A model generated the notes under the pieces. It was given only the letters and a program-made list of their open reading frames with translations, was not told the origin of the DNA and did not search any database. The translations under genes and the position numbers were made by a program. Below, piece by piece: positions 41,172-51,536 of a stretch of 58,367 bases of DNA. Every line of letters starts with the position of its first letter. Position 1 is the first letter of the stretch. Source of the DNA: a virus; the IMG/VR virus record IMGVR_UViG_3300025085_000023, positions 1 to 58,367 of that record. The stretch is one strand, 5' to 3'.

Positions 41172-41200
41172 ATTATAACAGAGCTGGTGAGGAGCGTCAA
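41172..41200 (-). promoter_or_regulatory. Sigma-70-type promoter for gp32
   Basis: TTGACG (41195-41200), 17-nt spacer, TATAAT (41172-41177) on the minus strand, leaving a leader of about 60 nt. The -35 element overlaps the stop codon of the DUF1825-like gene. Confidence 0.8.
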
Positions 41201-44712: not shown

Positions 44713-44741
44713 ATGTTACCATAAAAAAAGAAGGGTGTCAA
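44713..44741 (-). promoter_or_regulatory. Promoter of the thyX-phoH unit, -35 in terminator loop
   Basis: TTGACA (44736-44741), 17-nt spacer, TAACAT (44713-44718) on the minus strand. The -35 hexamer is the complete loop of the terminator hairpin at 44729-44748. Confidence 0.7.
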
Positions 44742-44748
44742 CCCTTCT
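44723..44748 (-). terminator. Intrinsic terminator with TTGACA loop
   Basis: AGAAGGG-TTGACA-CCCTTCT followed by a seven-T run (44729-44723) on the minus strand. It ends the transcript of the DUF4278-like gene (stop at 44766) 18 nt after the stop. Confidence 0.82.
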
Positions 44749-44765
44749 CAATTACTTGTAAGTTA

Positions 44766-45204: not shown

Positions 45205-45233
45205 ATTATACCATATTATATAGAATATGTAAA
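45205..45233 (-). promoter_or_regulatory. Sigma-70-type promoter downstream of speD
   Basis: TTTACA (45228-45233), 17-nt spacer, TATAAT (45205-45210) on the minus strand. The -35 element overlaps the 3' arm of the speD terminator hairpin. Confidence 0.75.
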
Positions 45234-45254
45234 GTGTATTATTTGATACACTTT
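45231..45254 (-). terminator. Hairpin terminator of speD
   Basis: AAAGTGTAT pairs perfectly with ATACACTTT (9 bp, 6-nt loop) right after the speD stop. The T-tract after it is poor, so termination may be partial. Confidence 0.6.
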
Positions 45255-48018: not shown

Positions 48019-48549
48019 TTATTTACTACGAACGAAAGATATGTTACCAGCTACAACAATTCTGTTGCCTTCTCTTTCTGCAGGTTCTACACCATGAAGT
48101 GCCCATGAAGGGAAAGCAAACATTCTACCAGTCTCTTGTGGTGGATATGTTTTATCACCACTTGAGTTAACAAAGTAAAAACTTTCTAGTTGATCTGGTA
48201 ATGCCTTGATTACATGAACCCACGAAACAAAAGATCCTTGACCATGATGATCATGTACTGGATGAGAATTGGTGTGTTGGTTATTCATCTGTATCCAGAT
48301 GTCATATGGTTTCACTTCATATTTAATGTACCCATCGATGCCAACATCTTTCATCATCTCCACAGATTTATCTTCATAGAAAGAAAAAACTTCTTTAGAA
48401 AGTTCTTCACTTATTAAGTCAGGGGGATGATCCCAATCACTATATGTAGAATAGAACTTACTATCACTTTTTAAGTTACTCAAAATTTGTGATTCTAATC
48501 GGTTAACAAAAGACTCCTCATGTAAAATTTGCTGTGACCAAAGGATCAT
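48019..48549 (-). CDS. 2OG-Fe(II) oxygenase family protein
   Basis: 176 aa from the ATG at 48549; the frame opens upstream into the terminator, which cannot be coding. IWIQMNNQHTNSHPVHDHHG, QGSFVSWVHVIKAL, GRMFAFPSWALHGVEPA and EREGNRIVVAGNISF give the first His/Asp, the distal His and the Arg of this fold. Sequence differs clearly from the two oxygenases at 18411 and 19776. First gene after the promoter at 48575-48603. Confidence 0.85.
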   Translation of the reverse strand: MILWSQQILHEESFVNRLESQILSNLKSDSKFYSTYSDWDHPPDLISEELSKEVFSFYEDKSVEMMKDVGIDGYIKYEVKPYDIWIQMNNQHTNSHPVHDHHGQGSFVSWVHVIKALPDQLESFYFVNSSGDKTYPPQETGRMFAFPSWALHGVEPAEREGNRIVVAGNISFVRSK

Positions 48550-48574
48550 ATTGTTATGGTTGCTTTGTCTCCGT

Positions 48575-48603
48575 ATTATACAATAAAAAACCACCCCTGT
48601 CAA
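48575..48603 (-). promoter_or_regulatory. Consensus sigma-70 promoter, -35 in terminator loop
   Basis: TTGACA (48598-48603), 17-nt spacer, TATAAT (48575-48580) on the minus strand: a full consensus promoter. The -35 hexamer is exactly the loop of the terminator at 48590-48611. It drives the 2OG oxygenase, glutaredoxin and perhaps rnh. Confidence 0.85.
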
Positions 48604-48611
48604 GGAGTGGT
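48585..48611 (-). terminator. Intrinsic terminator with TTGACA loop
   Basis: ACCACTCC-TTGACA-GGGGTGGT (8 bp with one G-U) followed by a six-T run on the minus strand. It ends the transcript of the 73-aa gene stopping at 48670. Same design as the terminator at 44723-44748. Confidence 0.82.
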
Positions 48612-48669
48612 GGTCGGTCTAGGAGGTGGTCTGAATGGGCAGTCGCGACACCCAGCACCACAACATCCT

Positions 48670-48891
48670 CTAGTCATGCTCAGCGAAGTGCTTTCCGATA
48701 ACTTCAATACGTTCTTCTTCATGAGCAATGATATCTAATTGTTCTTGAATAGCACCAAGGACATCTGGATGCTCACCAATACCAACAGGGTTGTGTAAGT
48801 ATATTTCTATGTTTGCTTTTGCTTTGGCAATATTACCTAAAGCATCACCAACTAGAGCATCTAATACTTTTTCGCGAAGATTGCAAGACAT
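48670..48891 (-). CDS. Conserved small cyanophage protein
   Basis: 73 aa, helical, one Cys. LREKVLDALVGDALGNIAKA and a His/Glu-rich C-terminal helix (DIIAHEEERIEVIGKHFAEH). It follows the psbA/psbD block but has its own late-promoter-like AATAAATA 19 nt upstream. Function unknown. Confidence 0.7.
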   Translation of the reverse strand: MSCNLREKVLDALVGDALGNIAKAKANIEIYLHNPVGIGEHPDVLGAIQEQLDIIAHEEERIEVIGKHFAEHD

Positions 48892-48908: not shown

Positions 48909-49118
48909 TTATTTATTGTATAGGTCTTCCAATTTTTCTTTGGATAGATCTACATACATAACCTCTTCACCTGGTTCAGGTGCTTCAGGATGTTTTGGTT
49001 TTGCTGGAGGTTGTGGTTTCATATCAAGTGACATGATATTTGCCCACACCATTGCGAATGCTGCACCCCCAATGAGAGCGAAGCATACGCCATAAACAAA
49101 TACTAGATAATGATTCAC
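48909..49118 (-). CDS. Small membrane protein next to psbD
   Basis: 69 aa with an N-terminal membrane helix ([20 protein letters not shown]) and a Pro-rich soluble tail. The ATG overlaps the psbD stop (ATGA), so it is translated with D2. It may sit in the thylakoid or cytoplasmic membrane; a photosystem role is suggested only by position. Confidence 0.75.
48910..48917 (-). promoter_or_regulatory. Late promoter-like motif downstream of psbD block
   Basis: AATAAATA on the minus strand, overlapping the last codons of the 69-aa gene and 19 nt before the ATG at 48891. Fits the late motif; the AT-rich stop region makes chance possible. Confidence 0.4.
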
Positions 49119-50170
49119 AATGCGTTTCCACGAGGAAGAACTTCTTCAGGGAAGATGAAGTTCTCATGTGGTTGGTCAGCAGGTGCCATCCAAGCACGTA
49201 GTCCTTCATTCAATAGGATGTTCTTTGTGTAGAACGTCTCGAACTCAGGATCTTCTGCTGCTCTAATCTCCTGACTTACAAAATCATAAGCACGAAGATT
49301 AAGAGCAAGCCCAATGATGCCAATGCTTGAGACCCAGAGACCCATGACAGGAACAAACAGCATAAAGAAGTGCAACCAACGCTTATTGCTAAACGCAATG
49401 CCGAAGATTTGTGACCAAAAACGATTCGCTGTAACCATCGAATACGTCTCTTCTTCTTGAGTGGAATCGAACGCAGTGAATGTGTTGTTCTGTTCACCAT
49501 CTTCATACAATGTATTCTCTACTGTAACGCCATGGATTGCTGACAGCAATGCCCCACCCAGTATACCAGCAACTCCCATCATATGGAAGGGGTTGAGTGT
49601 CCAGTTGTGGAAACCCTGAAGGAACAACAGGAATCTAAAGATTGCTGCTACCCCGAAACTAGGTGCAAAGAACCATGAAGACTGACCCAGTGGATACAAA
49701 AGGAATACACTGACAAAGACAGCAATAGGACCAGAGAACGCAATAGCATTGTAAGGACGGATACCAATGAGACGTGCCAGTTCAAACTGACGGAGCATGA
49801 AACCAATTAGGGCGAAGGCACCGTGGAGAGCAACAAAGGACCAAAGCCCTCCAAGTTGGCACCAGCGTTGGAAGTCGCCTTGAGACTCAGGACCCCAAAG
49901 TAGAAGAAGAGAATGACCCATAGCATCAGCAGGCGTCGAGACAGCTGCTGTGAGAAAGTTAGCACCTTCAAGGTAGGAACTAGCAAGACCATGGGTGTAC
50001 CAACTCGTAACAAAAGTCGTGCCAGTAAGCCAGCCACCAATGGCCAAATAAGCAGTGGGAAGAAGTAGGAGTCCAGACCAGCCCACAAAGACAAAGCGAT
50101 CTCGTTTAACCCAGTCGTCCAGGACATCGAACCACCCCCTCGTTGGTGTTGTTAGTGTACTTGTTGTCAT
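49115..50170 (-). CDS. psbD: Photosystem II D2 protein
   Basis: 351 aa, full length (cyanobacterial D2 is 351-352). [24 protein letters not shown]-like loop region [40 protein letters not shown] with the chlorophyll/iron His, and [20 protein letters not shown] are typical. D2 pairs with D1 in the PSII reaction centre. The phage copy keeps photosynthesis running while host transcription stops. It lies downstream of psbA, separated by a terminator hairpin, so its expression may depend on read-through. Confidence 0.98.
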
Positions 50171-51337: not shown

Positions 51338-51507
51338 TGTTTTAAACAAAAAAGTAAGACCATCAGGGAAATGGTGGAGTTACTATTCCTATGCCACCCT
51401 TAGGCACAGGTATGAAAGACTATTGTTTAGACACGCTGTTTAGTCTTGGTAAGGCGTGTAAAGAAGCGTTAAGAAATGTGTTGGTTCCTTAACCTGCCGA
51501 TGTATTT

Positions 51508-51536
51508 AGTATAGCAGATGAGGTGTTGTCTGTCAA
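51508..51536 (-). promoter_or_regulatory. psbA promoter
   Basis: TTGACA (51531-51536), 17-nt spacer, TATACT (51508-51513) on the minus strand, with CTAAATAC overlapping its 3' end as a late-like motif. The leader to the ATG has inverted repeats (ACCAT/ATGGT; TGCC/GGCA). Confidence 0.82.

Follow-up and report, generated by a model that had tools for sequence, protein, structure and literature searches.

The locus and the anatomy of the element

The window, that is, the whole stretch of 58,367 nucleotides analysed here, derives from a T4-like Synechococcus cyanophage, its nearest matches being S-RIM44 and Syn1 (~81% identity). On its minus strand, psbA and psbD are followed by two small ORFs, a composite element of 37 bases and a gene for a 2OG-Fe(II) oxygenase-like protein (Table 1). 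The only Rfam matches in the window were to tRNA and PhotoRC-II, with none at the composite. The PhotoRC-II RNA (RF01717, E 2.7e-8) lies at 51375-51471 (-), between a promoter at 51536 (TTGACA-17-TATACT) and psbA.

Table 1. Features at and around the composite element (window coordinates)
Feature	Position	Strand	Description or basis
psbD	49115..50170	-	upstream gene, in the transcription unit predicted to end at the hairpin
Small ORF after psbD	48909-49118	-	
Upstream ORF	48670..48891	-	73 aa, ends ahead of the hairpin
Conserved micro-ORF	48600..48677	-	MTRGCCGAGCRDCPFRPPPRPTTTP, 25 codons; TGA stop inside the loop TTGACA
Composite element	48611-48575	-	ACCACTCC TTGACA GGGGTGGT TTTTT ATTG TATAAT; read from sequence
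Intrinsic-terminator-like hairpin	48590..48611	-	ACCACTCCT-TGAC-AGGGGTGGT; sequence, terminator scan, RNA fold, stem covariation
-35 hexamer TTGACA	48598..48603	-	in hairpin loop; sequence and consensus scan
T-run (U-tract)	48585..48590	-	after the stem, within the 17-nt promoter spacer; sequence, positions nearly invariant in relatives
-10 hexamer TATAAT	48575..48580	-	17 nt from -35; sequence and consensus scan
2OG-Fe(II) oxygenase-like protein	48019..48549	-	176 aa, putative ATG 48549; PHROG 81, weak Pfam match
Companion composite hairpin and T-run	44728..44749	-	GAGAAGGGT-TGAC-ACCCTTCTT; same position below speD in relatives
Companion -10 TAACAT	44713..44718	-	weak (4/6), 17 nt from TTGACA, TG upstream
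AT-rich dyad near speD	45231-45254	-	AAGTGTAT...ATACACTT; overlaps a TTTACA -35, TATAAT 17 nt on, without T-run

The consensus scan found a promoter at 48603-48575 (-) with 12/12 matches and a spacer of 17, and it separately listed 48611-48590 (-) as a terminator-like site. Folding of the latter as RNA gave a hairpin of -12.9 kcal/mol (z -3.45), one of its stem pairs being G-T. The first-pass annotation had described TTGACA as the full loop of this hairpin, with TATAAT at 17 nt. The location of the hexamer in the hairpin loop and the spacing were confirmed, but in the RNA the outer T of TTGACA pairs with its outer A as the ninth stem pair, leaving TGAC as the strict loop. Intrinsic terminators are expected to have a G+C-rich stem with a minimum of 5-8 pairs and a U-run directly behind it, and here a stem of nine pairs is followed by TTTTT. 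From a sigma70 promoter one expects -35 and -10 hexamers 16-18 bp apart and a co-directional start codon shortly downstream; the element has the hexamers at such a spacing, and an ATG at 48549 lies 25 nt past the -10. Transcription is predicted to start near 48568, ~7 bp past TATAAT, and the composite would drive the 2OG-Fe(II) oxygenase-like gene, with ATG 48549 as its likely start codon.

Phage promoters of other types were considered and discarded. A T4 late promoter would carry TATAAATA at -10 and need no -35, and TATAAT followed by ACGG was found instead. The N4-type promoter is a small hairpin near -11 that is read single-stranded by the virion RNA polymerase. The geometry does not fit this type, with the hairpin at about -43 to -22 from the predicted start and sigma70 hexamers present.

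The only other TTGACA hairpin in the window was the companion at 44749-44728 (-), which reads GAGAAGGG TTGACA CCCTTCTT T5. Comparison in sequence showed that the two stems are unrelated, in agreement with the earlier description. A dyad near speD had been put forward as a third case; being AT-rich and without a T-run, it has a different architecture and was set aside as such, and it could be an operator. A site at 41200 (GGGGGT TGAC GCTCCT) was likewise rejected as a composite, having a weak stem and no T-run.

Excess over chance, promoter spacing and lineage

We have assembled a cyanophage set of 3.68 Mb, comprising psbD, speD and phoH loci from virus contigs (80, 26 and 80, respectively), isolates and the window. 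The isolates were nine genomes, eight of them complete and P-HM1 taken to 180 kb. The virus contigs were partly redundant, and distinct counts were made with a k-mer filter. Among 483 distinct terminators of this set, 50 had TTGAC in the loop region, compared with a mean of 2.6 for the other 59 anagrams of TTGAC and 7 for its reverse complement. The four control phages T4, KVP40, PB1 and FelixO1 had together 0/101 terminators with a TTGAC loop. A nearby TATAAT or TATACT accompanied 29/50 TTGAC-loop terminators vs. 47/433 others (odds ratio 11, P 2e-13). Counted against shuffled controls, as the first-pass annotation had proposed, TTGAC-loop terminators numbered 86 vs. 0.5, and those with a -10 numbered 52 vs. 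0 (12 dinucleotide shuffles, raw counts that still include near-duplicates). When all terminators were considered, a consensus -10 lay within 21 nt of the stem in 32/156 in the nine isolate genomes, with 3.2 expected, and in 0/105 in the four control phages.

The composite is not obligatory, because the first terminator after psbD had neither TTGAC nor a nearby -10 in 38/79 psbD loci. A scan of the Syn9 genome, for which a transcript map has reportedly been published, showed no composite element. The commonest terminator loop in cyanophages was TTCG (28/232 distinct hairpins).

Virus contigs were then searched with patterns permitting spacers of 11-22 nt. The pattern GGG-TTGAC-N-CCC followed by T5 and TATAAT occurred in at least 120 stretches and its counterpart with swapped arms (CCC-TTGAC-N-GGG) in 111. 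No stretch matched when the loop of the former pattern was scrambled. The spacer was of 16-18 nt in 119/120 of the GGG-TTGAC matches listed and in 104/112 with the arms swapped, together 223/232 places. This spacing is that of a sigma70 promoter and would be unexplained if the hexamers were incidental. The best -10 fell at 16-18 nt in 49/56 TTGAC-loop elements, in a search that resolves ties toward 16-17; the pattern scans are free of tie-breaking. A negative correlation between arm and linker length was also seen and was dropped as evidence because the elements had been preselected for a spacing of 16-18. The idea that an extended -10 substitutes for the -35 in composites lacking TTGAC was abandoned as well, the TG frequencies (20/47 vs. 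8/29) not differing significantly.

Cyanomyovirus-like proteins were encoded on 220/228 loci (~96%) among the pattern matches listed. Bacterial and archaeal genomes totalling 257 Gb contained the GGG-TTGAC-CCC pattern in only 9 stretches, and one of the 9 is on a contig with cyanomyovirus-like proteins. A contig of the bacterial genome set (L498, NZZM01000018.1), binned as Formosa sp., has cyanomyovirus proteins with 72% identity over 753 aa and is probably phage contamination of the Formosa sp. MAG. The interleaved hairpin-promoter pattern was also present in virus contigs without cyanomyovirus proteins (L504, L521, L532, L564, L568, L603 and L395), which suggests an occasional independent origin. 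As judged from these scans, the design is heavily concentrated in the T4-like cyanophage lineage, arises occasionally elsewhere and is close to absent in the remaining genomes that were searched. The earlier proposal that an architecture rather than a sequence is repeated was thus supported, through the large excess, the lineage enrichment and the precise sigma70 spacing in related phages. The proposal of a design principle was also supported, except that it is not limited to one genome and is common to T4-like cyanophages as a group.

Conservation, gene context and the stop codon in the loop

In the psbD-side family, 8/9 stem pairs vary on both sides and 95% of the cells are paired, in an alignment that takes in three unrelated stems, which add variation; the AGCAC/GTGCT exchange is within-family. 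This covariation exceeded that of all shuffles and slid versions. The T-run and the -10 are kept in these relatives, and the sequence past the -10 varies freely. Conservation near psbD is due in part to common descent, and the stem at this site also encodes the end of the micro-ORF described below. Below speD, the hairpins of relatives at the same position have different stems, with TTGAC, TTGCG or other loops.

The elements were found at gene boundaries. Flanking sequence was sufficient for 26 distinct elements that combine TTGAC with a -10. A same-strand stop lay just upstream in all 26, at a median of 8 nt from the stem, and a start codon followed the stem in 22 (median ~36 nt). The annotated genomes S-RIM44, S-SM2 and S-PM2 have the element between co-directional genes, ahead of hli. 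In Syn1, terminators with a -10 and without TTGAC follow gp46 and regA and precede cobS, again between co-directional genes. A-runs preceded the stem in 7/46 elements, no more often than in other terminators, and the reading of the element as a bidirectional terminator was dropped.

Further motifs were noticed near these boundaries. A TGTAAANNTTTACA-like palindrome lies near the predicted composite start in S-SM2 (167141), S-RIM44 (174368), L038 and L048, directly ahead of hli genes in the first two, and is a possible operator. Downstream of psbD, a number of loci (L016, L021, L053, L037, L040, L015 and others) have hairpins whose T-run enters the next start codon (TTTTTTATG), and 52/366 non-composite terminators had a start no more than 10 nt from the stem. 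Such hairpins may possibly serve attenuation or start-codon masking.

A third overlap concerns translation. The last codons of the micro-ORF at 48600..48677 (-) encode the 5' arm of the hairpin. Its product of ~25 aa is unannotated, has the form M(T/S)RGCCGAGC(R/P)DCPFRPPP (motif CCGAGCxDCPFRPPP) and resembles the C-terminal half of DUF5522, in a weak match below the Pfam cut-off. The micro-ORF is also present in L002, L004, L006, L031, L217, L233, L236 and others, where its stop is often the TGA of the terminator loop. More generally, the TGA within TTGACA ends an ORF of 40 codons or more in 16/50 distinct elements, some of which may be chance frames. S-PM2 gene 169, ending at 124312, is an annotated case. 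This gene and the micro-ORF of the window are, from sequence, the best supported instances of a stop codon in the loop.

A probable stop-and-restart element and its alternatives

The 37-base element is, very probably, an intrinsic terminator interleaved with a host-type sigma70 promoter, forming a stop-and-restart element. What the DNA itself shows is the anatomy of the element, its large excess over chance and its spacing, the covariation of its stem, its gene context and its enrichment in the lineage. We infer that termination and initiation both occur in infected cells. A polymerase coming from psbA/psbD and the small genes past psbD would form the hairpin and U-run and release its transcript, while the same DNA would recruit a sigma70 polymerase to transcribe the 2OG-Fe(II) oxygenase gene and the genes behind it. 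The incoming transcript would finish at the U-run, and the new one would begin ~15 bp downstream and lack the hairpin. The part of the terminator that is free to vary, the loop, would house the fixed -35, and the free 17-bp spacer of the promoter would house the 3' arm and the T-run. Both signals would fit in ~37 bp because what is fixed in one is free in the other. In a minority of elements, the TGA in TTGACA would double as the stop codon for the gene ahead of it.

According to one study, cyanomyoviruses are without homologues of alt, modA/B, motA and asi, and their early genes are probably transcribed by a host polymerase that is left unmodified (PMC2984593). In the absence of these T4 polymerase-redirecting factors, host promoters of the consensus type may remain usable while infection proceeds. 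This could be why the cyanomyovirus lineage, and not T4 or KVP40, has the design.

The hairpin might instead be an operator or a cruciform at the -35 that controls the promoter, as proteins can bind to inverted repeats surrounding a -35. We consider this improbable, since the T-run follows the stem in one direction only and A-runs precede the stem no more often than in terminators at large; moreover, the stems differ between sites, each being self-complementary, and the elements sit between co-directional genes. It is very improbable that the TTGAC loop is favoured for RNA reasons, such as loop stability or a loop-binding protein, with the promoter being incidental. Such a preference would be compatible with the 21/50 TTGAC-loop terminators lacking a clear TATAAT or TATACT, but most of these terminators retain a weaker -10 (49/56 above), and a fixed distance to a DNA hexamer past the transcript end is not explained by RNA. 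The homology of the psbD-side element among relatives could point to a terminator alone, with TTGACA and TATAAT inherited or present by chance. That account is hardly credible, as many other sites with unrelated stems share the loop and spacing and neither the scrambled loop nor the shuffles gave any match.

The two activities could also be coupled. A terminating polymerase would halt between the -35 and the -10 and, with sigma70, immediately restart on the next gene, or a promoter-bound polymerase would block the incoming one. The U-run end ~15 bp before the predicted start is compatible with such a relay, and a bacterial polymerase that has terminated can remain on the DNA and begin again from the nearest promoter (PMC11347151). 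Simple packing of the two signals, however, predicts the sequence pattern equally, and the recycling was shown in vitro and, in the words of the cited work, not yet in vivo (PMC11347151). We regard the relay as possible but unlikely. Its corollary, that downstream-gene expression depends on upstream traffic and that T4-like cyanophages chain separate transcripts genome-wide, is doubtful.

Under the preferred reading of an interleaved terminator and promoter, the two signals can share ~37 bp without conflict, and the design should let cyanophages turn genes off, then on again, within very little DNA. Early and middle gene control in these cyanophages is described as unclear (PMC2984593). With the element, transcript boundaries in some of the ocean's commonest viruses would be recognisable by a simple signature in the sequence. 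It would also serve as a natural test bed for how polymerase restarts once it has terminated, and as a compact stop-start part in the engineering of cyanobacteria.

Overlap of promoter and terminator is known in general. At E. coli frd/ampC, a single DNA stretch also closes one operon and opens the next, with a promoter that precedes the hairpin and a hairpin that attenuates ampC. In the cyanophage element, unlike there, the -35 is in the loop, the start lies past the hairpin and the new RNA is without it. A phage early promoter right behind a terminator is found in Kayvirus, where p98 immediately follows t97 and late transcription reads through (PMC7698491); these signals are described as adjacent and as a single case, whereas the cyanophage element is interleaved and recurring. 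T4-like cyanophages themselves have early sigma70 promoters of the same host-type class, and terminators and promoters were predicted around pstS (PMC2984593, PMC3037559); no passage on a -35 within terminator loops was found in these papers. Searches of the searchable literature with phrasing on overlapping promoter and terminator returned nothing relevant, and the recurrent interleaved form appears undescribed there. A further parallel is recycling termination, in which a terminator beside a promoter could favour restart: there the terminators lie up to ~1000 bp from the promoter, whereas in the cyanophage element the two are interleaved (PMC11347151).
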